This document shows positions 22,500 to 55,100 of a stretch of 64,000 nucleotides of DNA, one piece after another; position 1 is the first letter of the stretch, and the number at the start of each line of letters is the position of its first letter. This stretch comes from Chondrosia reniformis. Lineage: Eukaryota; Porifera; Demospongiae; Chondrillida; Chondrillidae. A model generated the notes under the pieces. It worked only from the letters and a program-made list of their open reading frames with translations. It was not told where the DNA came from and did no database searches. The DNA lies in assembly GCA_947172415.1 (NCBI GenBank), contig OX359194.1, positions 186,001 to 250,000 on the forward strand, written 5' to 3'. The position numbers and the translations under genes were made by a program.

Positions 22500-22725
22500 A
22501 ATACGTAGTTGTACGTTTGGGCACGTGATAATTGCCATATTTAGAATGGAGAAGAAATCGACCACGTGTTGGGCGTCTCCGTATTTTTGCGATCTATCAT
22601 AAGAAAGAGTTAAAGAACCTTGAGATAGACAACTTGTAATAGTCTCGGTGGCTAAAGTAGATCTTACGAAAGAGTAACTCTTTATCCCTTCTGAAAATAG
22701 AAGCCGTACAACTAGTTGCAGAACG
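22500..22725 (+). promoter_or_regulatory. NLR-A promoter block
   Basis: About 200 bp ending at GTTGCAGAA, nearly identical to 35400-35614 and 51575-51790. It contains CACGTG at 22522-22527 (as CACGTGATAA) and 22563-22568, then GCGATCTATCATAAGAAAG and CTTACGAAAGAGTAACTC. Homology to the sister promoters stops a few bases before the effector start codon. Confidence 0.7.
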
Positions 22726-25700
22726 ATGACGATGGATGAAAGAAAGCGTAAAGCTCTAAACGCCCTTCTTCCTGAAATGGAAAAAAACATTCCTGTAGAT
22801 GCATTCTTATCGTCATTACACAGTGATACAAAGGACGGCTTTTTGAGTGACTACGAAATGGAAGAAGTACGGGGAGCACACAATAGAATTGAGCAATTCC
22901 GTTCTTTGATAGGCTTTTTGCGATCTAAAGGAAACGAAGACTTTTATAAATTCTGCCGTCTCTTAGAAGCATTCGAATATAAAGGATGGGCTAATAGGCT
23001 GAAGAAAAAGGGTAAGTTGGATACTCCAAGTTTTGTAACCGTTGATCTGGGCTACGCGAGGCTATACATAGCTAGTTCTGTAATCCGTAAACTGTGCATG
23101 GTGTTCAACCACCCAGAAGCCAGGCGTGTGTACAGGAGTGCATTTTTATGGCATTTACTATTTAAATTGGTTGCAGCTAGCTAGTTATCTCAGGAGTCTG
23201 AGTATTTTGTAACTGGCACTGTTATACCCTCAATTACTGGTTGTTTCGTTTTTGCGAAATCCCGAAATAGGCTGAAAATCGCCGAAACAAGACCGTGTAA
23301 TGTTAAATGTAGAACAGCAACGCTATAAACTGGCCTTGAAGGCAAGTGACTGTGTTCCGCTTTGTAATGATGCTTCAATATTTTTCCATTTTAAAGCACC
23401 AAAACCATTTGGTAGAGTGCCCCTTTCATTTCACTAATGAGAATGAAAAACTGGTATACGTATAAGTTGCCTGCCACAACTATGTATCTTAATTCAGCTA
23501 GCAATATAAAATCTCTTGAGTATTACAATCTCAAAATCTATCACAATTGAATATGAATATATATAACACCTGGTTTCAATATAAATTTCCTATAGGTTTT
23601 CTATAGTCCTATGGCATTTTATATGCAGACTTTGTTCGCTGTTTTCTAACAAACGGAGGCCTAAATGTAAAATCCCTTAATTTAAAATGAGTTTTATAAC
23701 CCTAAACTTTATGATGATATGCCCATTTTGTTTCTAGGTCCTTTCTTGGAGCCATATGAATTATTTAATTATATTATATTATATTATATATTCGTATATA
23801 TATTGTAACTTGTACTGTATATATATATATATATGAATGTCTAAGTATATAGTGCTGGCTAATTACACTCAAGTACACTACACAGTGAAAGTTACTGGCA
23901 AATATATAAAGTATTGAAATTACAATCAAGTAGTACACAGTACAAGTTACAAATTTATGAGGTCCAAGTGACTATATAATATTAAAATTACAATCAAGTA
24001 CTAGCTACACATGTACATGCAGTGCAAGTTAAGGACATAAAAGGCCAAGACCTTTATATATGTATGTCATATGATGTCCCTTGTGTACAAGTTACAAAAT
24101 AAGAAGAATACTGTAGTAACGTCCATTTTATAGTAATTGTATAACTTTATACTTAAAGGCTGATGGACAAAAGAATGATCATTTGAATGTTACTCATCAG
24201 ATTACATAGAGTATATATGTATGCAATCACTTATATAAACATATTTTTCTTAGTTTCACCTGACTCTAATGGAAAAAACGTATCTCCTCCGGTAGATCCT
24301 AACCAGTCCACTCCAGTAAGTGTACTTTCTGTAGCTACGTATGTATATATAGAGTGTACATACAGGTTTATGAAGTGTGTCATATGTCATGTGCCTAGTT
24401 ATGTATGCTAAAAAAATTCAGTTAAAGGAACAACGATCTCTACATTTGTATACTGAATAATATTTATTATATATATAATATGTAGTAATTCTCATGTAAA
24501 TATGCTATATATGTCTCATTCTGTAGGATCCTCTATTAAAGCTACAAGAAAATGCATTTGGTGAATACAAGTCGTATAAGCTGGGTGAAGGAGACAGTGA
24601 AGTAAGGTTTGTCAGACTAGCCATTGTGAAGAACAAGCCATCAGTCTTAGAGACAGAGGGAGATCAATTAGAAACATTAAAACGATTAAGGGAGTTCGGT
24701 CCTAAAAGTGACATTGAGGGATACATAGATGTTAAAGATTTAGCAAAGCAATGTAAAGATAGGATACGAATCGTATATGGTCAACCGGGAGCAGGAAAGA
24801 CAACTGCCATGAAGCACATCTGTCAGCAAGTAGCTCTCTCTCAGATCAAGAGTGATTATGCGCTCATTTTCTTCTTTCCCTTGAGAGAGGAGAGTGTTTC
24901 TAGGTATACCGACCTCCCCAGTCTACTCGAATACTATGGGGAGGGGCCCTCTGTAGACATCGCCATGGCAACCAAAATGCTAGAGGATGGAAAGGGTCGA
25001 GACACATTGCTGATATTTGATGGTGCTGATGAAGCTAGAGAGCTTCTACAGGAGGGATCCAATTCTGTCCTTTTGAAGCTGTTAAAAGGGAAGTTGCTAC
25101 CGGAGGCCTCAATCATACTTTCCAGTCGACCTGGTGTATGTCCTGAACTACAGAAATATGCCAATCAGTTCTATGAAGTGCAGGGATTTGATGAGGTTGC
25201 TATTGAGGCTTACGTGAAGGAGTTCTTCAAAGATGATCCAAGTTCTGCTGAGAGAATGTTACAGACCATCAAAGATCGTCCTGATTTGGAGGGTGGAGCC
25301 TACATTCCAGTGAATCTGTTTATTTTCTGTTCCACTTTCAAAGCCAATGAATATTCACTTCCTGCCACCATCACAGAATGTTTCCAAGGTCATGTTAGTG
25401 ACCTGTGTTCTAGGGAATGTGAAAAAGAGGGAAGAGATGTCTACATTGACCCAACTCTTTCTGAGCTCCCAGAAGACCTACAGGACCTCCTTCGACGTCT
25501 AGGAGAACTTGCCTTTAAAGGTTTGACAGCTAAACCATCCAACTACATTTTCACTGAGCAAGCCATTCGGAATGCCTTCCCTGAAATTAAGGGAAAGCTC
25601 CATGACTCCCTTTTCAAAGGACTCCTTCACCTACACATTGGAAAAATATGTAGGCAAACATTTTCAGGCAACTTCTCCCATGCAACTCTCCAAGAGTTCT

Positions 25701-28700
25701 TTTCTGCCCGTCACCTGAGTCGGCTCTCCGAAAAGGATCAAGTGATATTTTGGAAGGAGCACATTTCCAATCCATCCTTTGCTGTGGTCTTGCGATTTTA
25801 TGCTGGACTGACGAAATTATCTTGCAAAGATTTCATCCCATCATGTCTTGTCACGCCTCATTCCACTCCCACAACAGCTGCTCCTCCCAATGTAGCTGGT
25901 GCTACTCTGCAGCTGCCAGATAAATCTGATCAGCAGAATCCTCAGCTCCTCTTTCTGTTGCATGCGCTTCATGAGTCTCAAAATGAGACTATTATCTGTG
26001 AAACATTGAAGCACTTGAATAGTCCACTTAGGTTTTTTGATCTAGGTTCATTTGATGTGATGGTTGTACTAAATTGTTTAGCACGCTGTACTCATTTGGT
26101 TGAGTTGTTTATGCATGGACACAGAAATCCATTTCCTGTTGAGAGTGTTAAGCGTTTACTACACAACAATCAAAAGTTGCAAAAGCTGCAAGGATGTGTC
26201 CTTGATCACTTGACTGAAGATGGTAAGACATTACTTTACATGTTATTATTGTTTCATACTAAAAACAAATTAAATAAGTAGATATTTCTGTCTATATGAC
26301 CACAAAGAGTGAGTCTTTAGTCTATTTCTAATTTATTGTTAAGCATACATTTGTTATTGATAAGCTTAATGAGTGTTGACTATGTTAATAATGATAAAGT
26401 GTGTGTTTGTGTTTGTATTAGATGCAGTGACTATGTTCACAAGAACATGTTCAGTGAAGGAGCTGGATCTGAACATTACCAAGTCCACTTCAGTATCTGC
26501 CATAATGAGAGTGTTTTCATTGAAGGAATTGGAGACACTGAGATTGAGCCTTAGTGGCTGTACAATAACAGTGAGTCACTATGCATCATTTTTCTAATGT
26601 CTATGTCACTATTTTGAAGCAGGTAACTGTATATTAGCTGTAACCTCATGTATATTACCAAATAGTTAATAGGTGCACTATAAGTTCTTAATGATTCTCC
26701 TAACCTGTGAACTTACAGGCTAATATATATGCAAACAGATTATAAGTCGACTTAGTTTTTAACTTTAGCCATGCAACATTGGATAACTTGTTTGTCATTT
26801 AATGTAAGTCATTCTGTGTTGTATTTTTAAAATTTATTTATGCATGCAGGAATCTGAAGGTAGCTCATTAGAGGAACTTGTTCATAGTAATCTCTCTCTG
26901 AAGGAGTTTCGTTTGTATTGTTCACATGCCAAGATACTGTCACACAGCCAATTCTTTGATTGTCTCTCCATTGTTACTAATCTTTCAAGTCTTGAGAAAT
27001 GTAATGTTCAGCTATCAGAATTATCAGAAGGAGGTATGCTATTATGTGGTTTTGAATGAGATTATAATGTATGTAGTTGATAGTGTTTGTTATTGATAAG
27101 CTTAATGAGTGTTGACTATGTTAATAATGATAAAGTGTATGTTTGTGTTTGTATTAGATGCAGTGACTATGTTCACAAGAACATGTTCAGTGAAGGAGCT
27201 GGATCTGAACATTGACGAGTCCACTTCAGTATCTGCCCTAATAGAAGTGTTTTCATTGAAGGAATTGGAGACACTGAGTTTGTACCTTCGTGGCTGTACA
27301 AAAACAGTGAGTCACTATGCATCATTTTTCTAATGTCTATGTCACTATTTTGAAGCAGGTAACTGTATATTAGCTGTAACCTCATGTATATTTCCAAATA
27401 GTTAATAGTTGCACAATAAGTTCTTAATGATTCTCCTAATTTGTGTACTTACGGTCAAATATATGCAAACAAATTACAAGTTGATTTAGTTTTTAAATGT
27501 AGCCATGCAACGTTGGATAAATTGTTTGTCATTTAATATAAGTCATTCTGTGTTGTATTTTTAAAATTTATGCATGCATGCAGGAATCTGAAGGTAGCTC
27601 ATTAGAGGAACTTATTCGTAGTAATCTCTCTCTTTTGACTTGTTTGTAACTTGTAATTATATTAATTCTTTCTTCTATCTCTTGTTATATTCTTTATACT
27701 TATATATAAGGGTTCAATATACAATATTTCTTTAAATGTACAGTATTTGTTCCACCAGTTTCAAATCAAATTCTATTGAACATAATAATGTGAATACATG
27801 TATATTTAAAAATTTAAATGTATATAGGGATGTGAGGAAAAATTTGAATCATTAAAATCAACTATCAACAATAACAGTCACTTGAACAAGTTAGCATTTC
27901 GAATTCATTGTAATCAGATGAAGAGACCATCCCATTTAAAGTGTATTGAATGTATATCTCAGAGCAGATCAATTAATTACTTGGAGGTTGAATCAAGTAA
28001 GTTCCTTATTATCAAGTCTGTGTTTAGCATTGAAATTTGTACATTTTATTGTATCATTCATACGTACTGTATACATTTGTTTGACACACTTATTGTTAGT
28101 CTTTTTACACGTTTGTTCTCTTTATGTATGTGATGCCAGCTACATGACTGTACAGTGAATGTATTCTATAAAACGAACAGTGCTGATATATTTCATTGTT
28201 CTTTCCACAGCCGATGGACATGACCTGGTTCCTGTGCTGGAAATGGTACAGTTGAGGAAACTCATAGTGAGGAACACAGATCCAGTACCTCTACTACACT
28301 CATTAAAGAACAGAAGAGATGTATTAGAAGAATTAATATTTGTTATCGATTGGTATTTTGAATCATGGGTCAGTTTTAAGTGTGTTTGCTATCTTTAGCT
28401 GTTTGACTGACATTGTTTAGAATGATCTTTTTAATTGTTAAATATTCTGTAAGTATATTAAAGCTAGGACATTGTAAAGGAATATCACATTCTGTAATAC
28501 CTACCATTCCACTGACATTCTGTGTTAGAGGAGTCATGTTTGTATTTACATTTGTATTCATCTGACGGTCACTTTGTTTAATATACGTATATACGTATAT
28601 ACACTATAGATTGTGTAGCTAAGCTAAAATGTCTTTATACATACATTTCTATTAGTATACATTCTCATAAGAGATATTCTAAGATGAATATGTAAGGTAT

Positions 28701-29027: not shown

Positions 29028-29147
29028 ATATTAGCAAATATAAGAAAAACTACTAATGTACTGTACATTGTATTGGTTTTGTAAATATTTGTACACAACA
29101 CTAGATATAATAACAATATAATACACTAGTACTGCGTGACGGTATCA

Positions 29148-29947: not shown

Positions 29948-29961
29948 CTACACAGACAAGT

Positions 29962-30028
29962 GAGGAATACATATATAGCACTGTATATACGTATAGTGAG
30001 GAATACAGCACTGTGTATGTATATACAT
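29962..30028. repeat. GTGAGGAATACATATATAGC minisatellite, short copy
   Basis: One full unit and one shortened unit of the roughly 36-bp repeat that is expanded at 46862-47150 in unit 2. Confidence 0.8.
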
Positions 30029-30030
30029 AC

Positions 30031-30272
30031 GCCAAGGATTCACAGAAGATCAAGATAAAGAAAGAGACAAAGACTCCCAGGATCACTGATGAAGGGTGGA
30101 ATTCCCAGAAACGGCTGTCTGACCCAGTGGAGAAGAAGATGAAAGAAGGGAAAAGAAGGAAGAAAAGACTCCTGTATCTTCATCTAAAGCTCTCTTTAGG
30201 TTTAGTTCCCCTATAGGCTCTTTTTACAGAATAGGCATATAGCATGTAGGAAAATGGTATCTTAGATTTTTC
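30031..30272 (+). mobile_element. 5'-truncated retroelement tail (copy 2 of 3)
   Basis: 242 bp from GCCAAGGATTCACAG to CTTAGATTTTTC, nearly identical to 34091-34332. The sister loci at 47160-47200 and 61538-61575 lack it and read TACATACATAATTGGATGTG then CATTAGCTAA. This insertion replaced about 14 bp of target. Confidence 0.85.
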
Positions 30273-30479
30273 ATTAGCTAATATGTCACTGAGGTGATGC
30301 AACTATTACGAGTGGAAGAGTTACTAGAACAAAACTACTGTACAATATATACATAGAAATGAATACGCTTACAATCAGTCAAACATATATATTTAGTTAC
30401 AAAATATTAATGCTATAAACATGTCCACAGATAAAGTTTATAGTTGTAGAGTACACACTTCTATACCAATATTACATAT

Positions 30480-30598
30480 AAACAACCACATGATCGTATA
30501 TGCAACCACATGATCATATATGCAACCACATGTTCGTATATACAACCACATGATCGTATATATACAACCACATGTTCGTATATACAACCACATGATAT
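30480..30598. repeat. CAACCACATGATCGTATATA minisatellite, 6 copies
   Basis: Six units of the 18-22-bp repeat that is expanded to several dozen units in units 2 and 3. Ends next to the conserved GAGAAGTGGAATGACAAGC sequence upstream of the PLA2-like gene. Confidence 0.9.
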
Positions 30599-31073
30599 TG
30601 CTTACTCTAGAGAAGTGGAATGACAAGCAGAACATTGAGATGGTTGTGGTTGGGTCACATGACTGATAAGCACAACTCCTGCACTACTACGTATATAAGT
30701 CACTACTTTGTATTCCTAATTCTACATTACCTCAAACACTATTCAAGTATCAATAGATTCCTACTGATTACGTGCAGTGGGAAAATATTCAATACTAAAT
30801 TACACTGTCAGATGCAATGTGTTATACGTACATGTATTCTTCAATACTGAACTGACACATCTCATATGTAGGACATTCATTGTAAAGCATATACAATATA
30901 AGGATGTATAGAATAAGGTCTATATAGTGTATAAATGGGTTAATATATATTATTTCAGTACAGGAACCTACACACAGCTTAGTGTACTGGTTCTGCATAC
31001 AAGTGGCCCACAATATGAGTCTATACAGTGAAGGCAGATCTCCTCAGAAGTGAATATCCACTACTACTAGACT

Positions 31074-32021
31074 ATGTATGTGAGAAGGCTGGCAGTAGAG
31101 TTCTACTTTCTATTCCTTCTGACCTCCATATCCCCTCCAGCCACACTTGCAGGTGATGGGTACTCTGTGGAGTTTGAAATGGAGGACACTGGCAGAGGTA
31201 TCTACGGGAGGTACTCTATGGTGAAGGAGGGAGGCAGGAGAGTTGGACTGCTGTTTGGAGCCAACAGGCATAGTGCTGCTCTAAAGACACTGAACGGAGA
31301 GGTGCTCATTGCCCCGCTGAGGAACCTGAGGGGAGGAGCTTGTCATGTTGTGCAGGTAGCCTCTGAGAGGTTTGTGGATTGCTGGAGGAAGTGGGGGGGG
31401 CGGGGCGGTTCCGTGCAGTCAAAGGACAGGACTATGGACATATCAGAAAGGTCAAAAACATTGACCACCTGCTGGAAGATGAAGAAGAGAGTAGAGATGC
31501 ATTTAATGAGGCGATGGGGAAGGTTCTGGAGAGTGAGGAGGTCCAGCTCCTTCCCGGTCTGGTCAGGAGGATGGTCCGGTTTGGATACAGAGGACCTCAC
31601 CATCAGCCCTCACTTCAAATACTTCTACTTGCTCACAGACTAACTAATCTGCTGAAAGAGAAGGCAATGGAATCAGAATCACAGATAACTGATGAAAATC
31701 AGTTACGTATTTGAAGACAACGATGATGAAATACTAGTGCAATCAGATAACCCATACAGTAGCTTTGAGACTGTTGTTGCGCAATATTCTGAAGCTGAGA
31801 TGGCAAAATGCAAGTCGGACAAATCCTGTCCACCATGTAAGCACTTGGAGTGTACTGGTCTGTGCGGTCCAGGATGCACTTGCTGGCAGTTCCTGTGTGG
31901 AGACTGCTGCGTACATATTGGGTGCCTGGGTCACGACATCTGCTGTGCCAAATATGGACCCAGCTCTTGGCAGTGCATTATGATAGTGAACTTTCAGTGT
32001 AACAAGAACTTTCCTTGTTAA
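31074..32021 (+). pseudogene. PLA2-like secreted cysteine-rich protein, frameshifted copy
   Basis: Collinear with the intact gene at 48721-49662. One extra G in a run of eight near 31393 shifts the frame after FVDCWRK. A 4-bp insertion near 31705 shifts it again after ENQL. The signal peptide and the cysteine-rich C-terminus are otherwise preserved. No single reading frame spans the gene. Confidence 0.85.
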
Positions 32022-35271: not shown

Positions 35272-35399
35272 CACACACCAGTACACTTCATGTTCTATTT
35301 TATATATAGCACATCATCAAAAATGTCAATTTTATTTTCAATCTGTATTTTTATAATCTTATATAATGTTACAGTAGCCATGAAAGTATTACATACGTA

Positions 35400-35656
35400 G
35401 TCGTACGTTTGGGCACGTGATAATTCCCATATTTAGAATGGAGAAGAAATCGACCACGTGTTGGGCGTCTTCCGTATTTTTGCGATCTATCATAAGAAAG
35501 AGTTAAAGAACCTTGAGATAGACAACTTGTAATAGTCTCAGTAGCTAAAGTAGATCTTACGAAAGAGTAATTCTTCATCCCTTCTAAAAATAGAAGCCGT
35601 AGCTACTAGTTGCAGAAGCGCTCTGCTCTCGCTATAGTGACTTAAAAAGGTGATCG
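35400..35656 (+). promoter_or_regulatory. NLR-B promoter block
   Basis: Same block as at 22500. CACGTG at 35414-35419 and 35455-35460. Shares GAAGCGCTCTGCTCTCGCTA with unit 3 after GTTGCA, then diverges before the caspase start codon at 35657. Confidence 0.7.
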
Positions 35657-38600
35657 ATGGCAGTGGCAAATACAAGCAGCTTCTTTCTTGTAGTAAACAG
35701 CTACTATAATACCCAACTTGATCCAGTACCGAATACTGATGAAGGATTGCAGTTGTATGCGGAAACTTTCTATAAGTATCTTTCATTTTCACAGTATGGA
35801 ATCCATTCCGATTGCAGCAAGGAAGATTTCGTTCGTGTTTTTATCAATTTTCTGAAACAAATAGGTCCACACACTACCAAGTATTTCGCCTTTATATTCT
35901 TGGGTCATGGGAGTGAAGGACACCTCTTTATGAACGATGGACAATCGGTCAGTATCCAGGATATCGTAGACGAGATTAACAAATTTGTTCCAGAACAAGT
36001 CTCCAAACTGTTTATAATCAACGCCTGCCGTGAAAATGAGAAATTGGTGCTTCCGAACACCCCGAACTCAATCTATATTTACTCGACCCTTCCCGGGAGA
36101 AAGGCTATCCCCGAATGGTCTAAGTACTTTAATGATCAAATGCGAACAAACGCAGGCGATTTGGCTGATGTATGTTTCTCAGCACGTGGAAAAATGAAGG
36201 AATACCTTAAGAGTAATGTTGAGCCAAGCCAGTATATCAGCAATGGTCTGTCTGCTCCAAAGCTGCTACAGGATGAACCTTTTAGATTAAAAATTCCTGA
36301 AGCTATTTCACAGCATCTTAAAGCATATTCCCAATTAATGGAACAATACCGAGGTATGTATGGTTTTAATTTGTATGCATGGGTATTCCATATCATGTAC
36401 ATTTTACATTTGATCTCATCAATGGCAACCTATATAGTGTTATTGTCTTTTATTTTATATCAGCAGGGGATCTTTCATTCGGAAATGTAGGGCAACAACC
36501 TCTTTTGACTCCAGAGGACACACCACTTCAAATACTCTTAGATTCTCAGCACTCTAATGGAGGAATAACACCTCCTCAGAATGTACCTCTTCAGAATGTA
36601 CCTCCTCAGAATGTACCTCCTCAGAACGTACCTCCTCAGAACGTACCTCCTCAGAACGTACCTCCTCAGAACGTACCTCCTCAGAACGTACCTCCTCAGA
36701 ACGTACCTCCTCAGAACGTACCTCCTCAGAACGTACCTCCTCAGAACGTACCTCCTCAGAACGTACCTCCTCAGAACGTACCTCATCAGAATGTACCTCC
36801 TCAGAACGTACCTCATCAGAACGTACCTCCTCAGAACGTACCTCCTCAGAACGTACCTGAACAGAGTCACCTTAAAGATGTCAGTCAATCACCTGACACT
36901 GGTAAGACATTTGTAATAAATCAAACATACAACTACAGTGCTTCCTCAATTAGCCAGACCCTCAATAGTATTAATTAGTATGCTCACAGGTTGCTTCACT
37001 TGTCCGGACTTTTTCTCTTATTCAAACACCTTTTTACTGACCATGTGTATTCATGTGTAAGTGTAACACTCTTGCAAACATATTCATAGCTTTGGCTTTC
37101 CATATAAGAATACTGTAGTAAAGTCCATTTTAAAGTAATTGTATAACTTTATACTTAAATACTAAGATTATGGACAAAAGAATGATCATTTGAATGTTAC
37201 TCATCAGATTACATAGAGTATATGTATGCAACCACACCACTTATATAAACATATTTTTCTTAGTTTCTCCTGACTCTAATGGATCCCGGAGAAAACGTAC
37301 CTTCTCAGAACGTACCTCCTCAGAACGTACCTCCTCAGAATGTACCTCCTCAGAACGTACCTCCTCAGAACGTACCTCCTCAGAATGTACTTCCTCAGAA
37401 CGTACCTCTTCAGAATGTACCTCCTCAGAACGTACCTCCTCAGAATGTACCTCCTCAGAACGTACCTCCTCAGAACGTGCCTCCTCAGAACGTACCTCCT
37501 CAGAATGAACCTCCTCAGAATGTACCTCCTCAGAACTTACCTCCTCAGAATTTTGATCTTAACCAGTCCCCAGTAAGTGTATATACGTACATTCTGTAGC
37601 TACGTACGTATATATAGAGTGTACTATACAGTGAAGTGTGTCATATGTCATGTGCCTAGTTATGTATGCTAACAAAATTCAGTTAAAGGAACAAAAGATT
37701 TGTATACTGTTTAATATTTATTATATAATATGTAGTAATTCTCATATAAATACGTTTTGTGTCTCATTCTGTAGGGCCCTCTATTAAAGCTACAAGAAAA
37801 TGCATTTGGTGAATACGAGTCATATAAGCTGGCTGAAGGAGACAGTGAAGTAAGGTTTGTCAGGCTGGCCATAGTGAAGAACAAGCCATCAGTCTTAGAG
37901 ACAAAGGGAGATCAATTAGAAACATTAAAACGATTAAGGGAGTGCGGTCCTAGAAGTGACATTGAGGGATACATAGATGTTAAAGATTTAGCTAAGCAAT
38001 GTAAAGATAGGATACGAATCGTATATGGTCAACCGGGAGCAGGAAAGACAACTGCCATGAAGCACATCTGTCAACAAGTAGCACTCTCTCAGATCAAGAG
38101 TGATTTTGCGCTCATTCTCTTCTTTCCCTTGAGAGAGGAGAGTGTTTCTAGGTGTACCAACCTCCCCAGTCTACTCGAATACTATGGGGAGGGGTCCTCT
38201 GAAGACATCCCCATGGCAACCAAAATGCTGAAGGAAGGAAAGGGCCGAGACACATTGCTGATATTTGATGGTGCTGATGAAGCTAGAGAGCTTCTACAGG
38301 AGGGATCCAATTCTGTCCTTTTGAAGCTGTTAAAAGGGAAGTTGCTACCGGAAGCCTCAATCATACTTTCCAGTCGACCTGGTGTTTGTCCTGAACTACA
38401 GAAATATGCCAATCAGTTCTATGAAGTGCAGGGATTTGATGAGGATGCTATTGAGGCTTATGTGAATGAATTCTTCAAAGATGATCCAGGTTCTGCTGAG
38501 AGAATGTTGCAGACCATCAGAGATCGTCCTGATTTGAAGGGTGGAGCCTACATTCCAATGAATCTGTTTATTTTCTGTTCCACTTTCAAAGCCAATAAAT

Positions 38601-41600
38601 ATTCACTTCCTGCCACCATCACAGAATGTTACCAAGGTCATGTTAGTGAGCTGTGTTCTAGGGAATGTGAAAAAGATAGAAGAGATGTCTACATTGACCC
38701 AACTCTTTCTGAGCTTCCTAAAGACCTACAGGACCTCCTTCGGCGTCTAGGAGAACTTGCCTTTAAAGGTTTGACAGCTAAACCATCCAACTACATTTTC
38801 ACTGAGCAAGCCATTCGGAAAGCCTTCCCTGAAATTAAGGTAAAGCCCCACGATTCCCTTTTCAAAGGACTCCTTCATTTACACATTGGAAAACAAGGAG
38901 GATATAGGCCAACATTCTCTGGCAACTTCTCCCATGCAACTCTCCAAGAGTTCTTTTCTGCCCTTCACCTGAGTCGGCTCTCCGAAAAGGATCAGGTGAT
39001 GTTTTGGAAGGAGCACATTTCCAATCCATCCTTTGCTGTGGTCTTGCGATTTTATGCTGGGCTGACCAATTTATCTTGCAAAGATTTCATCCCATCATGT
39101 CTTGTCACGCCTCCTGCCACTCCCACAACAGCTGCTCCTCCCAATGTAGCTGGTGCTACTCTGCAGCTGCCAGCTACATCTGATCAGTGGAATCCTCAGC
39201 TCCTCTTTCTGTTGCATGCGCTTCATGAGTCTCAAAATGAGACTATTATCTGTGACACATTGAAGCACTTGAATAGTTCACTTAGGTTTCATGATCTAGG
39301 TTCATTTGATGTGATGGTTGTACTAAATTGTTTAGCACGCTGTACTCATTTGATTGAGTTGAATATGTATGGAAACAGAAATCCATTTCCTGTTGAGAGT
39401 GTTAAGCGTTTACTACACAGCAACCAAAACTTGCAAAAGCTGGGATATATTGTCCTTGATCACTTGACTGAAGATGGTAAGATATTACTTTACATGTTAT
39501 AACACTGTTTTCATATAAATCTATTGTAACAAATAAGTAGATATTTCTGTCTATATGACCACAAGGAGTAGTATTTATTATTATTAAAAGTATTTAGTCT
39601 ATTTCTTAATCTATTGTTAAGCATACCTTTGTTATTGATAATGAGTGTAATGTTATTAATGAATTAATGACCACTGATAAGTGTTAGATATTTCTTTCTT
39701 TAATTCATAGTTAAGCATTTGTTATCACTTAATTAATGTTGACTACGTATGATAATATATAACTGATAAAGTGTGTGTTTGTGTTTGTATTAGATGTAGT
39801 GACTATGTTCACAAGAACATGTTCAGTGAAGGAGCTGGAGCTGAGGATTACCAAGTCCACTTCAGTATCTGCCCTAATGAGATTGTTTTCATGGAAGGGA
39901 TTGGAGACACTGAATTTGGACCTTGATGGCTGTACAATAACAGTGAGTCACTATGCATCATTTTCTAATGTCTATGTCATTATTACATAACACATAACTG
40001 TATATTAGCTGTAACCTCACGTATATTTCCAAATAGTTAATATCTACTTCTCTCGGTAGGTTTGTAACCATTGCTTACCATTACTGCTGTATATAAAAAT
40101 TACTCCTTTTCTCCAACCTAAGTCACAAGTACACTAGAGTGTTTGTAATAGCTTGTGTACTTACTGGCTAATATTATAACATTTATTTCAATTATACGTA
40201 TGTTTTTAAATGTAGCCATGCAATGGTGGATAACTTGTTTGTCATTTAATGTAAGTCATTCTGTGTTGTATTTTTAAAATTTATTTATGCATGCAGGAAT
40301 CTGAACGTAGCTCATTAGAGGAACTTGTTCCCAGTAATCTCTCTCTGAAGGAGTTCAGTTTGCATTGTTCATTTGCCAAGATACTGTCACACAGACAATT
40401 CATTGATTGTCTCTCCATTGTTACTAATCTTTCAAGTCTTGAGAAATGTGATGTTGTACTGTCAGAATTATCAGAAGGAGGTATGCTATTATGTGGTTTT
40501 GAATGAGGTTATAAAGTATGTAGTTGATTGTGTTTGTTATTGATAAGCTCAATGAGTGTTGACTATGTTAATAATGATAAAGTGTGTGTTTGTGTTTGTA
40601 TTAGATGCAGTGACTATGTTCACAAGAACATGTTCAGTGAAGAAGCTGGATCTGAACATTACCGAGTCCACTTCAGTATCTGCCCTAATGAGATTGTTTT
40701 CATTGAAGGAATTGGAGACACTGAATTTGGACCTTAATGAATGTACAATAACAGTGAGTCACTATGCATCATTTTCTAATGCACAAACTGTAATTGTATA
40801 TTAGCTGTAACCTCATGTATATTTCCAAATAGTTAATATCTACTTCTCTCGGTAGGTTTGTAACCATTGCTTACCATTACTGCTGTATATAAAAATTACT
40901 CCTTTTCTCCAACCCAAGTCACAAGTACACTAGAGTGTTTGTAATAGCTTGTGTACTTACTGGCTAATATTATAACATTTATTTCAATTATACGTATGTT
41001 TTTAAATGTAGCCATGCAATGGTGGATAACTTGTTTGTCATTTAATGTAAGTCATTCTGTGTTGTATTTTTAAAATTTATTTATGCATGCAGGAATCTGA
41101 ACGTAGCTCATTAGAGGAACTTGTTCCCAGTAATCTCTCTCTGAAGGAGTTCAGTTTGCATTGTTCATTTGCCAAGATACTGTCACACAGACAATTCATT
41201 GATTGTCTCTCCATTGTTACTAATCTTTCAAGTCTTGAGAAATGTGATGTTGTACTGTCAGAATTATCAGAAGGAGGTATGCTATTATGTGGTTTTGAAT
41301 GAGGTTATAAAGTATGTAGTTGATTGTGTTTGTTATTGATAAGCTCAATGAGTGTTGACTATGTTAATAATGATAAAGTGTGTGTTTGTGTTTGTATTAG
41401 ATGCAGTGACTATGTTCACAAGAACATGTTCAGTGAAGAAGCTGGATCTGAACATTACTGAGTCCACTTCAGTATCTGCCCTAATGAGATTGTTTTCATT
41501 GAAGGAATTGGAGACACTGAATTTGGACCTTAATGAATGTACAATAACAGTGAGTCACTATGCATCATTTTCTAATGCACAAACTGTAATTGTATATTAG

Positions 41601-46861: not shown

Positions 46862-47150
46862 GTGAGGAATACATATATAGCACTGTATATACGTATAGTG
46901 AGGAATACATATATAGCACTGTATATATATACGTATAGTGAGGAATACATATATAGCACTGTATATACGTATAGTGAGGAATACATATATATATAGCACT
47001 GTATATATATACGTATAGTGAGGAATACATATATAGCACTGTATATACGTATAGTGAGGAATACATATATAGCACTGTATATATATACGTATAGTGAGGA
47101 ATACATATATAGCACTGTATATACGTATATATAGTGAGGAGTACAGCACT
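46862..47150. repeat. GTGAGGAATACATATATAGC minisatellite, expanded copy
   Basis: About seven units of 36-44 bp differing in the length of the TATATA run, ending in a shortened GTGAGGAGTACAGCACTGTG unit. Confidence 0.92.
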
Positions 47151-47434
47151 GTGTGTGTATATACATACATAATTGGATGTGCATTAGCTAAATATGTCAC
47201 TGAGGTGATGTAACTATTACGAGTGGAAGAGTTACTAGAGCAAAACTACTGTACAATATATATATACATAGAAATGAATACGCTTACAATCAGTCAAACA
47301 TATATATACGTATATTTAGTTACAAAATATATATTAATGCTATAAACACGTCCACATATAAAGTTTATAGTTGTAGAGTGTACACTTCTATACCAATATT
47401 ACATATAAAAGTGACTGATATATCTACTTCATGA

Positions 47435-48243
47435 TCGTACGTATATACAATCACATGTTCGTATATATGCAACCACATGATCGTATATATGCAACCACAT
47501 GATCGTATATATGCAACCACATGTTCGTATATATGCAACCACATGATCGTATATATGCAACCACATGATCGTATATGCAACCACATGATCGTATATATGC
47601 AACCACATGATCGTATATATGCAACCACATGATCATATATATACAACCACATGATCATATATATACAACCACATGATCATATATATACAACCACATGATC
47701 ATATATATGCAACCACATGATCGTATATATGCAACCACATGTTCGTATATATGCAACCACATGATCGTATATGCAACCACATGTTCGTATATACAATCAC
47801 ATGATCATATATGCAACCACATGTTCGTATATATGCAACCACATGATCGTATATGCAACCACATGATCGTATATACAACCACATGATCGTATATATGCAA
47901 CCACATGATCATATATATGCAACCACATGTTCGTATATACAATCACATGATCATATATGCAACCACACGATCGTATATATACAACCACATGATCGTATAT
48001 ACAACCACATGATCGTATATACAACCACATGATCGTATATACAACCACATGATCGTATATACAACCACATGATCGTATATATACAACCACATGATCGTAT
48101 ATATGCAACCACATGATCGTATATATGCAACCACATGTTCGTATATACAACCACATGATCGTATATATGCAACCACATGTTCGTATATACAACCACATGA
48201 TCGTATATATGCAACCACATGTTCGTATATACAACCACATGAT
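47435..48243. repeat. CAACCACATGATCGTATATA minisatellite, expanded (unit 2)
   Basis: Roughly 40 units of 18-22 bp, alternating GATC/GTTC cores and TATATG/TATAC spacers. All long frames across it on both strands are repeat artefacts. Confidence 0.95.
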
Positions 48244-48720
48244 TGTTCTTGAGAAGTGGAATGACAAGCAGAACATTGAGATGGTTGTGGTTGGGTCACA
48301 TGACTGATAAGCACAACTCCTGCAGTACTACGTATATAAGTCACTACTTTAAAATTTGTATTCCTATTTCTACATTACCTCAAACACTATTCAAGTATCA
48401 ATAGATTCCTACTGATTATGTGCAGTGGGAAAATATTCAATACTAAATTACACTGTCAGATGCAATGTGTTATACGTAAATGTATTCTTCAATACTGAAC
48501 TGACACATCTCATATGTAGGACATTCATTGTAAAGCACATACATTATAAGGATGTATAGAATAAGGTCTATATAGTGTAAAATGGGTTAATTTATATTAT
48601 TTCAGTACAGGAACCTACACACAGCTTAGTGTACTGGTTCTGCATACAAGTGGCCCACAATATGAGTCTATACAGTGAAGGCAGATCTCCTCAGAAGTGA
48701 ATATCCACTACTACTAGACT

Positions 48721-49662
48721 ATGGATGTGAGAAGGCTGGCAGTAGAGTTCTACTTTCTATTCCTTCTGACCTTCCTGTCCCCTCCAGCCACACTTGCGGG
48801 AGATGGGTACTCTGTGGAGTTTGAAATGGAGGACACTGGCAGAGGTATCTATGGGAGGTACTCTGTGGTGAAGGAGGGAGGTAGGAGAGTTGGACTGCTG
48901 TTTGGAGCCAACAGGCACAGTGCTGCTCTAAAGACATTGAATGGAGAGGTGCTCATTGCCCCGCTGAGGAACCTGAGGGGAGGAGCTTGTCGTGTTGTGC
49001 AGGTAGCCTCTGAGAGGTTTGTGGATTGCTGGAGGAAGAGGGGGGAGGGGCGGTTCCGTGCAGTCAAAGGACAGGACTATGGACATATCAGAAAGGTCAA
49101 AAACATTGACCACCTGCTGGAAGATGAAGAAGAGAGTAGAGATGCATTTAATGAGGCGATGGGGAAGGTTCTGGAGAGTGAGGAGGTCCAGCTCCTTCCC
49201 GGTCTGGTCAGGAGGATGGTCCGGTCTGGATACAGAGGACCTCACCATCAGCCCTCACTTCAAATACTTCTATTTGCTCACAGACTAACTAATCTGTTGA
49301 AAGAGAAGACAATGGAATCAGATTCACAGATAACTGATGAAAATCAGCTATTTGATGACAATGATGATGAAATACTAGTGCAATCAGATAACCCATACAG
49401 TAGTTTTGAGACTGTTGTTATGCAATACTCTGAAGCTGAGATGGCAAAATGCAAGTCGGACAAGTCCTGTCCACCATGTAAGCACTTGGAGTGTACTGGT
49501 CTGTGCGGTCCAGGATGCACTTGCTGGCAGTTCCTGTGTGGAGACTGCTGCGTACATATTGGGTGCCTGGGTCACGACATCTGCTGTGCCAAATATGGAC
49601 CCAGCTCTTGGCAGTGCATTATGATAGTGAACTTTCAGTGTAACAAGAACTTTCCTTGTTAA
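48721..49662 (+). CDS. Secreted PLA2-like cysteine-rich protein, intact copy
   Basis: Single-exon 313-aa protein. It has a basic N-terminus and hydrophobic signal peptide (FYFLFLLTFLSPPATLA), a middle region of about 200 residues with no family recognised by eye, an acidic stretch (FDDNDDEI), and a C-terminal domain with 16 cysteines. Core motif: GLCGPGCTCW, then CGDCCVHIGCLGHDICC. The glycine-rich loop followed by Cys-Cys and a His-Asp pair before Cys-Cys resembles the calcium loop and catalytic HD of secreted phospholipase A2. Catalysis is an inference, since overall length and spacing differ from classical PLA2. Frameshifted copies lie at 31074 and 63050. Confidence 0.75.
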   Translation: MDVRRLAVEFYFLFLLTFLSPPATLAGDGYSVEFEMEDTGRGIYGRYSVVKEGGRRVGLLFGANRHSAALKTLNGEVLIAPLRNLRGGACRVVQVASERFVDCWRKRGEGRFRAVKGQDYGHIRKVKNIDHLLEDEEESRDAFNEAMGKVLESEEVQLLPGLVRRMVRSGYRGPHHQPSLQILLFAHRLTNLLKEKTMESDSQITDENQLFDDNDDEILVQSDNPYSSFETVVMQYSEAEMAKCKSDKSCPPCKHLECTGLCGPGCTCWQFLCGDCCVHIGCLGHDICCAKYGPSSWQCIMIVNFQCNKNFPC

Positions 49663-49950
49663 TTTTCATGTCTCCCCCCTTCAAAACACATGTATCTACC
49701 TGAACACTGCTATATATTGTAGCTTTAATTACATACACTATTCTTATGTGAGGTTTACTCAGTGACACTTTATTGCACTTTCCTCTAATGTCTGTATACA
49801 TAAGATTACAAAGTCAAGGCCCATTAACATGTAACAATGTACTTTAAGGGACTTCATCAAAGAAATCAACTTTTTACTCTTTATTTGTTATATCCTTATG
49901 TGGATAGTTCTTCTATACTGTATTCCCATGTATGTACCAATGTATGATAG

Positions 49951-51453
49951 GTGCTGTATCATGAGGATCGATTCCAAGATGTCCTCAGTGAGCTAGTGAG
50001 GGCTAAATGGACCCATGGACAGACAATTGTTTGCAGTCACTACATTAAAAACTTACAAGTACGTAAATAAGAGAGATTGCATGCTCATTTGTGTTGGAGA
50101 CTCAGACTTGTGGAGCTCTAGGATTAAAAGATGAGAATTTTGAATGTACTGAACTGTCTAGAATGTAATTTATTGTTTTATGTTTAAAAAGTCTTCAATC
50201 AGACTGAGAATCCTATATTTATTGCTATATACAATACACATTCATATACAGTATAGTATAGGGTGTATATGTATGGGTTGACTAGAGCAATGTAAAGTTG
50301 AATTTCAATACCTGTTCGATTGTCTCATTTCTTTCACTTGAAGGATGTCGTTCTACCTCAACACCTTCAACACTTGATAGAGTGGAGGATTAATGAAGAG
50401 AATGAAGAGAATGGAACAGTAGACACTTACTGGATTGAACAAGACTATACAAAACGGTAAGTGTACGTACATATATCTTGACCATATAACTACCACATAC
50501 TACAGCCATACATGGTTTGGTCAGATGTGGGACATGAGTGGTGTCTCTCATAACTTGATGGATTGATACTTCACTATCTTGTCCTATACAGGCTCAACCA
50601 ACTACATATACTAAAACTATTATTAGTGATATATAGTACATACACATATATAGCAGTTACAGTATATTCTAGGATACTTGCTCAGTATACCCATTTCTCT
50701 CTTCAGTGACCAGTGGTCAGAGTTGATAGCCTTTGATTATTTAACAGGAAATACAGATCGACTGGTCAACTTGCTGACAAATTACCAATATAATAGAGAC
50801 ATTGTTTCCAGTCCAGTTCACAATCTGGCTCAAAATGGGAATGGGGATCTGATATTCCTAGACCATGAGACCTCATTTCTAGTCGGATACAAGTTTTCAA
50901 AAGATCACAAAAAAGCAAAGCATTTCAGGTATATCCTTATATGGTAATGTGAATCTTACCTCCTATGTTAAAAATGGAATCCATTAAATTGTCACAGTGA
51001 CTGTTATATATTTAAATTGACAGCCTTAACAATCTATAATATATAGTTTCGTCACTTACTGCAGAACAAATGTAAATATGATTATGTTTCATTCTCAATA
51101 CCCTCTACATACATGTTAGCCAATCAATTTGTGTTTCATCATTTCTCTATTTTCTAAACTTTTAGGAGTTCTTTATGAGAAACATTTGTCCCTACTCTCC
51201 AGCACTCATCAGGAAGGTGTCACCATTCTGTTCCCATTCATCTACAGTTGGATTGGCTGTCTCACAACTATTCAAATCTGCTGATCCTAAAGGCTGGAGG
51301 ACAGTGACTGACCTGTCTCCAACACTACTGGAGGAGCTCTCCCTCAGAACAGAGATATTCTGTGGTCAACTGGTGACAGAGTGTAGAATTAGTTTAACTT
51401 GTACACACCATTCCTCTTCATGTTCTATTTTATATATAACACTTCATCAATAA
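49951..51453 (+). pseudogene. Four-jointed exons 2-5, headless copy C
   Basis: Exons 49951-50058, 50344-50456, 50707-50928 and from 51166. The fourth is 222 nt instead of 223: one base is lost in the A-rich CACAAAGAAAGC stretch, which shifts the frame after KDHK. The original stop is also lost (TTGACAC became TTGTACAC), so the frame runs on to about 51453. No exon 1. Confidence 0.85.
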
Positions 51454-51574
51454 TGTCAATTGTATTTTCAATCTGTATTTTTAAATCTTATAAAATCTTA
51501 TACAGTTGTAATATATAAAGTAGCCATGAATGTATTACTCTGTTCTGATATAATATGACATAATCCTTACATAC

Positions 51575-51850
51575 GTAGTTGTACGTTCGGGCACGTGATA
51601 ATTGCCATATTTAGAATGGAGAAGAAATCGACCATGTGTTGGGCGTCACCGTATTTTTGCGATCTATCATAAGAAAGAGTTAAAGAAACTTGAGATAGAC
51701 AACTCGTAATAGTCTCGGTAGCTAAAGTAGATCTTACGAAAGAGTAACTCTTTTAGCCCTTCTGAAAATAGAAGCCATACCAGTTGCAGAAGCGCTCTGC
51801 TCTCGCTAGTGGCAAACAGAAGAGAAATCTCTGCGAAAGGCGGATATAGG
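51575..51850 (+). promoter_or_regulatory. NLR-C promoter block and probable 5' UTR exon
   Basis: Same block as in units 1 and 2. CACGTGATAA is kept at 51592, but the second box is mutated to CATGTG near 51633. After GCTCTGCTCTCGCTAG it continues into a likely untranslated exon ending GAGAG|GTGAGT near 51860. Confidence 0.6.
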
Positions 51851-52159
51851 TATCCGAGAGGTGAGTTTGAAGGGAAATTTATTTTTATTAAATTCGTCAC
51901 TTTGCTTAATGTAGATTTCTAATTCGTTATTTGCTAACACATCTAAAAATATCTATCTATCTATCTATATGACCAACTACAAGCATACCACTAATGATAT
52001 GATATGGCATAAGGTTAGGTTATGTTGATAAGGTTTTTTAATATCTTTCATTTCCCTTATATTATATTATATTCATCTGTCACTCTATCAGTAATATCAA
52101 TTGTATTTTTTGAAGCCATACTTGGTGCAGTTGCAGGGTACAGCTCTTAGAAGTAGATA

Positions 52160-55100
52160 ATGGGAAAGAAGTTATCAACTTGTAAGTGACATATAACTTA
52201 TCATGAATACTTTATAATGGCTCAACCAAACACAGCTATAAATAGGTTCCTGGTAATGAAGATTATTTAACAAATATATAGTACTAGCAAGATTAACATT
52301 TTACATCAAATTCTCATTCCCTGAATAGTGTTTCAAAGAGCTAGAGGTGCTACTCCAAATGAACCTACTCAGAATATAGCTTCTCCAACAACACATTTAA
52401 GGAATAACAATTCTATTCAGCCCCAATTACCCTCACATCCCAATGTTGGAGAGCAGTTACCACGACAACCAATCCAATCTAGAGGTAAGCATCCTTAGAG
52501 TCAATGAATACCATTATACCTACTTGGCCACACCCACTCATAATAACCTGTCTACAGATTCATGTTGTAACTGATCTCTGAGTCTTTTTGGTTACAATTT
52601 GATTCTGTAATTAGCAAAGTTATCATAATACAGACTAGAAACAATTACATAATAAATGTTTTAAAGTATGATGTTGTATATTTGTGTTTTAGCAATGGAA
52701 AAGCAACCAAATGAGGTCATTGCATTCCTTGACCAACACAGGGAAAGCCAAATAAAGCACTGCGATGCTCAAACAATACGTTTTGATCTTGAACGTCACC
52801 ATGCCATATCTCAAGGACAGAGACATCAGTTAGACTCTGCTTTGAGTGTACCTGATGCAAATAGTCTGTTCTACCAGTTCCTTCGCAATGACCCAGCTCC
52901 AGAGACACTTGAAGCAGCTGCTAAAGTACTAAAGGAAGCTCCTAATACTACAAACATGAATAAGAGTTTTGCAAAGGTTATTGAGGGTTTCTTATCTCTC
53001 AATGCTATCTCATCAGGTGGGTAAGTATGTGTAACTATGTGCGTAACACTCTTGCAAACATATTCAAAGCTTTGGGTTTCCATATAAGAATACTGTAGTA
53101 AAGTCCATTTTAAAGTAATTGTATAACTTTATACTTAAATGCTAAGATTATGGACAAAAGAATGATCATTTGAATGTTACTCATCAGATTACATGGAGTG
53201 TATGTATGCAACCACACCACTTATACAAACATATTTTTCTTAGTTTCTCCTGACTCTAATGGAGAAAACGCATCTCCTCCGGTAGATCCTAACCAGTCCA
53301 CTCTACCAGTAAGTGTACTTTCTGTAGCTACGTATGTATATATAGAGTGTACTATACAGGTTTACGAAGTGTGTCATATGTCATGTGCCTAGTTATGTAT
53401 GCTAACAAAACATGTAAATATGCTATATATGTCTCATTCTGTAGGAGAATGTACCTCATCAGAATTTACCTCCTCAGAATGTACCTCCTCAGAACGTACC
53501 TCTTCAGAATGTTGATCTTAACCAGTCCGCTCTACCAGTAAGTGTACTTTCTGTAGCTACGTATGTATATATAGAGTGTACTATACATACAGGTTTACGA
53601 AGTGTGTCATATGCCATGTGCCTAGTTATGTATGCTAACAAACTTCAGTTAAAGGAACAAAAGATCTCTACATTTGTATACTGAATAATATTTATTATAT
53701 AATATGTAGGAATTCTCATGTAAATATGCTATATATGTCTCATTCTGTAGGACTCTCTATTAAAGCTACAAGAAAATGCATTTGGTGAATACAAGTCATA
53801 TAAGCTGGCTGAAGGTGACAGTGAAGTAACGTTTGTCAGACTAGCCATTGTGAAGAACAAGCCATCAGTCTTAGAGACAAAGGGAGATCAATTAGAAACA
53901 TTAAAACGATTAAGGGAGTGCGGTCCTAAAAGTGAAATTGAGGGCTACATAGATGTTAAAGATTTAGCTAAGCAATGTAAAGATAGAATACGAATCATAT
54001 ATGGTCAAGCGGGAGCAGGAAAGACAACTGCCATGAAGCACATCTGTCAACAAGTAGCTCTCTCTCAGATCAAGAGTGATTTTGCGCTCATTCTCTTCTT
54101 TCCCTTGAGAGAGGAGAGTGTTTCTGGGTGTACCGACCTCCCCAGTCTGCTCGAATACTATGGGGAGGGGTCCTCTGTAGACATCCCCATGGCAACCAAA
54201 ATGCTAGAAGAAAGAAAGGGCCGAGACACATTGCTGATATTTGATGGTGTTGACGAAGCTAGAGAGCTTCTACAGGAGAGATCCAAATCTGTCCTTTTGA
54301 AGCTGTTAAAAGGGAAGTTGCTACCGGAAGCCTCAATCATACTTTCCAGTCGACCTGGTGTATGTCCTGAACTACAGAAATATGCCAATCAGTTCTATGA
54401 AGTGCAGGGATTTGATGAGGTTGCTATTGAGGCTTATGTGAAGGAGTTCTTCAAAGATGATCCACGTTCTGCTGAGAGAATGTTGCAGACCATCAGAGAT
54501 CGTCCTGATTTGAAGGGCGGAGCCTACATTCCAGTGAATCTGTTTATTTTCTGTTCCACTTTCAAAGCCAATGAATATTCACTTCCTGCCACCTTCACAG
54601 AATGTTACCAAGGTCATGTTAGTGGCCTGTGTTCTAGGGAATGTGAAAAAGAGGGAAGAGATGTCTACATTGACCCAACTCTATCTGAGCTTCCAGAAGA
54701 CCTACAGGACCTCCTTCGGTGTCTAGGAGAACTTGCCTTTAAAGGTTTGACAGCTAAGCCATCCAACTACATTTTCACTGAGCAAGCCATTCGGAATGTC
54801 TTTCCTGAAATTAAGGGAAATCCCCACGACTCCCTTTTCAAAGGACTCCTTCATTTACACAGTGGAAAACCTGGATGTAGGCCAACATTCTCTGGCAACT
54901 TCTCCCATGCAACTCTCCAAGAGTTCTTTTCTGCCCTTCACCTGAGTCGGCTCTCCGAAAAGGATCAGGTGATGTTTTGGAAGGAGCACATTTCCAATCC
55001 ATCCTTTGCTGTGGTCTTGCGATTTTATGCCGGACTGACAAAATTATCTTGCAAAGATTTCATCCCATCATGTCTTGTCACGCCTCCTGCCACTCCTACA

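Follow-up and report, generated by a model that had tools for sequence, protein, structure and literature searches.

Near-identical NOD-like receptors (NLRs) of the sponge Chondrosia reniformis carry different N-terminal effectors, and the effector is very probably a detachable exon cassette that has been exchanged between receptor genes. We have analysed a window of 64,000 nucleotides on chromosome 6 (C6:186001-250000, in the contig naming used here) that contains three tandem NLR units, and have searched the whole genome for related sequences (117,379,552 bases in 15 contigs; the genome note, in the parts considered here, gives 117.37 Mb in 14 chromosomes and the mitochondrion; PMC12181767). 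Near-identical NACHT bodies are found with CARD-A, CARD-B, another CARD-like, Death-like or caspase exons.

An array of five receptor units

The window was aligned with itself together with 50 kb to its right. It includes three units of about 13 to 16 kb each, which have in common a neighbouring gene block, a promoter/leader block, NACHT exons and downstream exons (Table 1). Two further NLR units occur in the 50 kb to the right. This gives an array of five, with CARD-A, caspase, CARD-B, caspase and CARD-A as effectors of units 1 to 5. In DNA sequence, NACHT is 94.3-94.8% identical among the three window units, and the promoter blocks, including that of unit 4, recur at 94-96%. Between the two lie unrelated sequences: CARD-A in unit 1, caspase in unit 2 and CARD-B in unit 3. 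A preliminary description of the window had reported just this, a near-identical promoter followed by three unrelated N-terminal exon sets (a CARD at 22726, a caspase at 35657 and a CARD-like domain at 52693). It had also called the NACHT/leucine-rich repeat (LRR) exons near-identical. This holds for NACHT, but no Pfam match to LRRs was obtained in the seven C-terminal open reading frames (ORFs) scanned, and the repeated leucine-rich exons are seen by eye only. When spliced, unit 1 (CARD-A, linker, NACHT) and unit 3 (5' untranslated region (UTR), CARD-B, two linkers, NACHT) both give an open frame through NACHT.

Nine NACHT exons in the genome, that of unit 1 included, have at least 86% protein identity to unit 1. 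Four of them lie outside C6, on C9, C4, C8 and C7 (86-88% amino acid identity); the array NLRs and these four dispersed, near-identical NLRs are referred to below as family A. The members on C9, C4 and C8 carry CARD-B while that at C7:403k carries a divergent caspase and a further CARD-like exon. Over the nine NLRs, this amounts to two CARD-A, two caspase, four CARD-B and one other caspase. The preliminary description had recommended a genome-wide search; two array units beyond the window and four dispersed relatives, each with its effector, have been added to its three units. The promoter block itself was found at 85% identity at C8:1017045, with shorter matches on C4 and C10.

The three window units had been described as three swapped copies. 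The C4 and C8 members, however, keep the leader and layout of unit 3, which therefore looks ancestral and gives no sign of a further swap; we have rejected unit 3 as a third independent event. Family A probably started out with CARD-B, caspase and CARD-A having arrived later. A tree of the nine NACHT exons is star-like, with no branch above both support thresholds, and does not support groups defined by cassette. Its sole moderate pair, units 4 and 5 (80/95), joins a caspase gene with a CARD-A gene.

The linker of family A contains a 15-bp in-frame minisatellite (NVPPQ) of highly variable length, absent from unit 1 and very long in unit 4 and in the C4 and C9 members. Minisatellite arrays lie at 36570-36858 and 37294-37550 of the window and at C6:253369-254316, ranging from none (unit 1) to dozens of copies. 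The fused linker of unit 4 could have arisen by recombination between two such arrays.

Breakpoints and reading phases

On the 5' side, the match of unit 1 stops at 22723 (..TTGCAGA/ACGATG), in agreement with the preliminary description, which had placed the break just after GTTGCAG. Units 2, 3 and 4, however, remain alike for a further 20 to 25 bp or so, after which units 2 and 4 enter the caspase copy. On the 3' side, homology had been thought to resume near 24104, 37050 and 53040; it was found to return at 24104 of unit 1 with 53086 of unit 3 and at 37063 of unit 2 with 53043 of unit 3. In unit 4 it returns about 155 bp later than in unit 2 (67296 with 37218), just 5' of the linker exon. 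The array breakpoints are close, not identical. Their spread, 43 to about 155 bp, is below the differences of hundreds of bases that the preliminary description had set against its own proposal.

Unit 5 does not share the promoter block, but its CARD-A is like that of unit 1 from 3 bp 5' of the start codon (96.7% DNA identity, the match beginning at 22723). The letters CTAGTTG occur within 5 bp of the CARD-A junction in both units. Since unit 5 has the same CARD-A behind another promoter, the promoter can change under one cassette just as the cassette can change under one promoter.

Read from the sequence, the exons of CARD-A, CARD-B and both caspases have phase-1 ends, and NACHT begins in phase 0. 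The linker exons of family A and of a second receptor family, on chromosome 7, run from phase 1 to phase 0. The Death-like and second CARD-like exons of this chromosome-7 (C7) family have possible, weak phase-1 donors.

The CARD-B exon in different receptor families

Genome-wide, 101 of 139 NACHT candidates and 150 of 302 CARD-B candidates were scored. An effector was paired with a listed NACHT if it lay no more than 7 kb upstream, using partial effector lists: the pairing table took in 56 of the 150 CARD-B matches, 11 of 13 caspase, 5 of 16 CARD-A, 14 of 150 Death and 7 of 72 CARD matches. With these lists, at least 56 of the 101 NACHTs have an effector.

Twenty-six of the scored CARD-B matches have at least 68% identity over at least 102 of the 108 residues, and all 26 were in the pairing table. 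Sixteen of them lie on the same strand as a listed NACHT and within 7 kb upstream of it (all 0.7-2.7 kb): four in family A, two in family B, nine in the C7 family and one in a gene on C2. NLRs with CARD-B occur on eight chromosomes (C1, C2, C4 and C6 to C10). The NACHTs of these families are far apart, with protein identities to family A of 46-51% for family B and about 29-32% for the C7 family; the C2 gene, outside this identity list, has a non-synonymous divergence (dN) of 0.73 to family A.

The CARD-B exons, in contrast, are close. Median synonymous divergence (dS) between families is 0.14 for A-B, 0.22 for A-C7, 0.22 for A-C2 and 0.20 for B-C7, with single pairs between 0.05 and 0.32, against a proportion of synonymous differences (pS) of 0.66-0.91, saturated or nearly so, in the NACHT exons of the same gene pairs. 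Within families, dS of CARD-B and NACHT is alike (0.13 and 0.11 in A, 0.15 and 0.11 in B, 0.10 and 0.18 in C7), and the synonymous sites of CARD-B are therefore neither frozen nor slow. This comparison supports recent copying of the CARD-B exon between receptor families of old split. CARD-A has a dS of 0.018 between units 1 and 5, against 0.066 for NACHT, with few sites. CARD-B is thus found in genes of different descent with incongruent histories, and with phase-compatible junctions, as in exon shuffling.

The resemblance is largely confined to the exon. Downstream, the match to unit 3 ends 2-23 bp after CARD-B in eight of the ten C7 and C2 copies (seven of nine C7 copies and the C2 copy); the two family-B copies match for 140 and 157 bp. 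Upstream, the C7, C2 and B genes were compared over about 95-105 bp, and the match stops 3-22 bp 5' of the exon, or just inside it for C7:99870. The introns 30-210 bp 3' of CARD-B are 81-84% alike within family A; when family A is compared with C7 or C2, their similarity is about that of shuffled sequence (60 against 53 and 41 against 38; 36 against 51 and 48 against 34). One C7 pair is 97% alike over 1.7 kb.

Many copies also agree over the first 25 bp or so of the intron behind the CARD-B donor (GTGGGTAT..TAACTATGAGTG), where the remainder of the intron does not (for example, 52693-53040 of the window). This stretch is either the usual boundary of transfer or a splicing element.

A linker with KEPPQ repeats, a variant of the NVPPQ repeat, comes after three more CARD-B copies, two of them on C3 (including C3:1.056 Mb) and one at C6:132k; their dS to family A is 0.14. 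At C6:125000-133000 (minus strand), a CARD-B exon, the KEPPQ linker, a 918-aa exon and a caspase exon (36.5 bits) follow each other in one orientation and are possibly one CARD-GTPase-caspase gene. The 918-aa exon is called 'ROCO-like' here because its Roc match, at 15.6 bits, stays below the cut-off of 27; the 5 kb examined behind the C3 copies showed no exon of this kind.

A 99-bp piece of the family-A promoter block lies at C10:992331-992429 (minus strand; 80%, E 7.6e-18), 1.4 kb upstream of the CARD-B of a family-B gene, and here the leader may have travelled together with the cassette. More distant CARD-B copies (48-61%) are found in other gene clusters (loci L090, L091 and L092). By eye, one of these loci has ankyrin-like sequence downstream and one a second CARD-like ORF.

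Probable replacement within families, and relics

A tree was made of 68 of the 101 NACHTs (its bootstrap had not settled, at 0.977, and the C2 row is long). The 16 CARD-B carriers on it require at least 11 changes (10-13 in 90% of bootstraps), five of which are forced by well-supported branches. Among the C7 genes, nine of 42 carry CARD-B, with six changes. Near-twins provide examples. C7:1224859 has another CARD-like exon and C7:952506 has CARD-B (NACHT DNA identity 96.3%). A Death-like exon takes the place of CARD-B in C7:2435869 relative to C7:1170910 (94.9%) and in C9:203466 relative to C1:357604 (97.1%).

In some genes, traces of another effector are still present. In the CARD-B gene of the last pair (C1:357k), the family-B Death exon survives as a tail behind CARD-B, together with its intron (94-95% alike); this tail is so placed that it could serve as a phase-1 linker exon. 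At C10:987k there are broken pieces of the family-B Death exon. Each case of exchange may be either insertion with replacement or conversion of a resident exon, but the relics favour replacement in at least two cases. Behind the caspase at C7:403k there is probably a truncated CARD-B start with its acceptor, seen as a short match of some 85 bp.

A probable source for the caspase cassette

A stand-alone gene at C6:1.435-1.437 Mb (minus strand), 1.2 Mb from the array, has a caspase exon with Death domains after it. The match of unit 4 to this gene extends over 1,194 bp (89%): it begins 14 bp 5' of the start codon, crosses the first intron and the second exon, takes in most of the following intron and stops just 5' of the linker. 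That of unit 2 covers 876 bp at 91.8%, the first intron included. Caspase dS is 0.08 between unit 2 and the stand-alone gene, 0.15 between unit 4 and this gene and 0.10 between units 2 and 4. Since introns were copied together with the caspase, genomic DNA was transferred, not spliced RNA; a retrocopy origin was rejected because the unit 4 copy keeps the intron sequence of the stand-alone gene. Copying would have been from the stand-alone gene to the NLRs, although the reverse is also possible.

Identity of the domains

The NACHT domain is clear (PF05729, 88.4 bits, cut-off 26.7), with an intact P-loop (GQPGAGKTT in unit 1 and GQAGAGKTT in unit 3). CARD-B is named for its fold: the predicted structure is a six-helix death fold of the CARD type, and the exon matched no Pfam family at E values up to 10. 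CARD-A reaches 17.2 bits with CARD_2 (cut-off 28.2) and 16.9 bits with CARD (cut-off 23.9), both below. Its relatives outside units 1 and 5 are all distant (at best 41%, C2:9437265), and some of these do reach the Pfam cut-off (for example, C10:324785). The caspase has a peptidase C14 domain above the cut-off and a p20/p10 fold. H84 and C124 are invariant in all five copies and, from the known motif and the fold, we take them to be the catalytic His/Cys pair of a predicted protease. The remaining names are given partly by eye: the second CARD-like exon of the C7 family has no Pfam match, and the Death matches of the C7 exon (14.3 bits) and of the family-B exon (18.4 bits) are below the cut-off. 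Other family-B genes pass the Death cut-off.

How cassettes may be exchanged

The proposal that interchangeable effectors were swapped in front of near-identical NLR bodies has been strengthened by the further units, the dispersed relatives, the caspase source, the cross-family CARD-B, the near-twins and the relics. We envisage that ectopic recombination, gene conversion or template switching between immune genes could paste a cassette between the 5' leader and the linker exon. The product would be tolerated, since the cassette is usually joined on through a phase-1 intron with a linker exon after it: with a tolerant linker, almost any cassette that ends in phase 1 would give a readable receptor, and selection would keep some of these. 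The preliminary description had spoken of a plug-in mechanism. The swapping is supported, but nothing points to a dedicated mechanism rather than to ordinary ectopic recombination whose products selection has kept.

In functional terms, a CARD cassette would recruit a CARD-bearing partner upon oligomerisation of NACHT and a caspase cassette would place the protease itself on the receptor. One sensor body could in this way have several outputs, and sensors of different families could share one. Such a change in signalling output is suggested by the known roles of CARDs and caspases.

More tentatively, CARD-B may be a 'common currency' module of the genome, still copied or converted among at least four NLR families and a ROCO-like gene type and providing unrelated sensors with one homotypic CARD output. 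The phase-1 intron and PPQN-type minisatellite linker would then be a standing docking site at which CARD, Death or whole caspase cassettes are exchanged.

A number of observations weigh against cassette exchange or limit its extent. Within 7 kb, 45 of the 101 NACHTs have no effector match in the partial list, and the cassette organisation may not extend to all NLRs. Splice sites are inferred from consensus and conservation, and the gene models are predicted. Direct splicing of unit 2 leads to a stop, its linker is frameshifted and the unit is possibly broken; with an acceptor 28 bp farther downstream, the frame stays open into NACHT. All cassettes had been described as ending in phase 1, which is correct for CARD-A, CARD-B and caspase in the window, but the family-B Death exon ends in phase 0: the phase-1 rule is common, not general. 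The NACHT at C1:357k contains a stop. Cassette dN/dS is high (about 0.5-1.1), which fits diversifying selection and also relaxed constraint.

Other such points concern the number and extent of transfers. On the NACHT tree, CARD-B carriers lie closer together than expected by chance: shuffled labels need 14.5 changes on average, against 11 here, and came as low in 6 of 500 shuffles. Two C7 copies match unit 3 for 64 and 89 bp past the exon. Within the C7 family, too, intron medians are 56% and 29%, against 46% and 38% for shuffled sequence, so that the C7 copies of CARD-B lie in several intron contexts; these may represent several arrivals or fast intron change. The C7 copies form one group in 93% of bootstrap trees, and transfers between families may therefore be few, with later spread inside families.

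Other explanations

CARD-B might have been present in all families from the start, with ectopic conversion keeping the copies alike and no new insertion. Conversion between diverged neighbours would indeed leave homology limited to the exon and a few to about 25 bp in most copies of distant families, as is seen, and the B30.2 exons of zebrafish NLRs, in the parts of the study considered here, act in this way (PMC4852459). This explanation is possible but rather unlikely: near-twins have Death-like or another CARD-like exon instead of CARD-B, the relics show displacement of exons, and in units 2 and 4 caspase replaced CARD-B in a family where three of the four dispersed members have it.

The effectors could, alternatively, have differed before the NLR bodies were duplicated, conversion having homogenised only the NACHT of unrelated genes. 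Tandem NACHT exons are alike and could be homogenised, and CARD-B amino acids change faster than those of NACHT within family A (dN 0.10 against 0.05). We consider this improbable: promoter and downstream exons match as well, the dispersed C4 and C8 members retain the leader and layout, and cross-family CARD-B identity is above what the family split allows.

It is slightly less probable still that the CARD or caspase exons belong to separate genes that merely lie upstream of NLRs and are not spliced to NACHT. The out-of-frame direct splice of unit 2 would fit. However, the reading frames of CARD-A, CARD-B and caspase stay open up to a phase-1 donor, splice sites are conserved, the spliced frames of units 1 and 3 are open, and all 16 paired CARD-B copies share the strand of their NACHT at short distance. 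An assembly or haplotype artefact, conceivable in tandem repeats that bear minisatellites and are hard to assemble, is hardly credible with CARD-B NLRs on eight chromosomes and a HiFi assembly with a quality value (QV) of 69.8 and Hi-C scaffolding, as reported in the genome note (PMC12181767).

Features of the array and its neighbourhood

The coordinates of the features are collected in Table 1. The promoter block forms the end of a longer stretch that was duplicated together, in which 20751-22423, 34334-35371 and 50468-51500 of the window are exons of another, upstream gene. The upstream ORF carries ..LIAFDYLTGNTDRLVNLL..GDLIFLDHE.. and presumably resembles kinases of the four-jointed/FAM20 type; the upstream ORFs tested had no match in Pfam. 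A second co-duplicated ORF lies 3' of the NLR units (31071-32018, 48718-49659 and 63047-63954), which starts like a signal peptide and is rich in Cys at its end. It is open in the copy at 48718 and broken up over two frames in those at 31071 and 63047; Pfam gave nothing significant for this ORF.

Between units 1 and 2 there is a pair of reverse-transcriptase-like ORFs (32803-33892; weak RVT_1 match of 16.5 bits, cut-off 29.6) flanked by a 244-bp direct repeat (30031-30274 and 34091-34334, 99.6%), also found at 10361-10593 (94%). This is a probable retroelement insertion. A second long minisatellite, with a unit of about 20-22 bp, lies 3' of units 2 and 3 (47418-48243 and 61789-62580) and is far shorter after unit 1 (30465-30596).

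Table 1. Features of the NLR array (window positions unless preceded by C6; a slash marks a splice junction)
Feature	Position	Strand	Remarks
Unit 1 promoter/5' leader block	22498..22723	+	94-96% to three other C6 units; ends ..GTTGCAGA at cassette junction
Unit 1 effector exon, CARD-A	22726..23011	+	phase 1 donor G/GTAAGT; open spliced frame
Unit 1 V-S-P-D linker exon	24254..24315	+	phase 1 to 0; read from sequence
Unit 1 NACHT exon	24527..26222	+	starts in phase 0; NACHT E 6.3e-25; donor GAAGATG/GTAAGA inferred
Unit 2 promoter/5' leader block	35390..35617	+	95% to unit 1
Unit 2 segment matching caspase-Death gene	35643..36505	+	91.8% to C6:1.436 Mb (-)
Unit 2 effector exon, caspase	35657..36353	+	phase 1 donor GAG/GTATGT
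Unit 2 second exon with (NVPPQ)n 15-bp minisatellite	36464..36901	+	splice sites inferred
Unit 2 linker exon	37264..37572	+	V-S-P-D frame broken by insertion relative to unit 3; possible alternative exon start 37292
Unit 2 NACHT exon	37775..39476	+	
Unit 3 promoter/5' leader block	51568..51791	+	94% to unit 1
Unit 3 5' UTR exon, part 3' of promoter block	51792..51860	+	donor CGAGAG/GTGAGT inferred; common to C8 and C4 members
Unit 3 effector exon, CARD-B	52693..53016	+	starts CAATGG; acceptor TTTTAG/CAATGG; phase 1 donor CATCAG/GTGGGT
Unit 3 V-S-P-D linker exon	53244..53308	+	read from sequence
Unit 3 second linker exon, PPQN-type repeats	53445..53537	+	phase 0 to 0
Unit 3 NACHT exon	53751..55449	+	
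Unit 4 promoter block	C6:251856-252083		96% to unit 1

Comparison with known systems

The comparisons that follow refer to the parts of each article considered here. In fungal NLRs, pairs of NOD domains that are 80-99% similar carry quite different N-terminal effectors, read as recent swaps, and the phylogenies of N-terminal domain and NOD are incongruent (Dyrka et al. 2014, PMC4986451). The fungal receptors have fungal effectors and WD/ANK/TPR bodies, whereas those of the sponge have CARD, Death and caspase exons, phase-1 junctions and a caspase source identified at the DNA level. Intron-exon cassettes, cross-family synonymous dating and relics are features of the sponge that are absent from the fungal passages. 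In the NLR-B30.2 genes of zebrafish (Howe et al. 2016, PMC4852459), domains are on exons of their own, N-terminal exons are shuffled and conversion of the C-terminal B30.2 exon across groups was argued from synonymous divergence. There, N-terminal peptide repeats and a C-terminal recognition exon move; in the sponge it is the N-terminal death-fold or protease effector.

Grafting in the RIG-I-like receptors of lophotrochozoans provides a further parallel, since receptors that are otherwise alike differ there in their N-terminal domains (CARD, Death, DED and CASc) and the explanation offered is exon-based (PMC8998645). That case involves mainly exonisation, in contrast to copied cassettes with identified sources. 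Exon shuffling also occurs in the brown-algal ROCO genes, a STAND/GTPase receptor family (PMC11378527); in these it is the ligand-side LRR exons that shuffle, and in the sponge the effector side, including one ROCO-like gene with CARD-B.

Among sponges, the NLRs of Dysidea avara have an N-terminal CARD or DEATH domain, with some others and CASc in the architecture legend, and NLRs of several sponges group by species and not by N-terminal class (PMC12909245). The CARD and DEATH classes of D. avara are in separate clusters and were taken as true paralogues, whereas in C. reniformis effectors interchange on near-identical NACHTs. The term Chondrosia is absent from the main text of that paper. Searches of open-licence full texts, judged from their listings, brought up no report of swapping in this sponge, nor of a dated cross-family effector exon in an animal NLR. 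Effector swapping in fungal NLRs and N-terminal exon shuffling in zebrafish NLRs are already known; what is new is an animal case resolved to the exon, with a dated cross-family exchange and the capture of a caspase.

Significance

How sensors come to be paired with effectors is usually inferred from very old fusions. Here the events are recent enough for sources, breakpoints, relics and a synonymous clock. A single early-branching animal offers a set of natural constructs in which the same sensor body has different outputs, including a receptor fused directly to a caspase. The finding is also a warning: sorting sponge NLRs by their N-terminal domain need not be the same as sorting them by descent.

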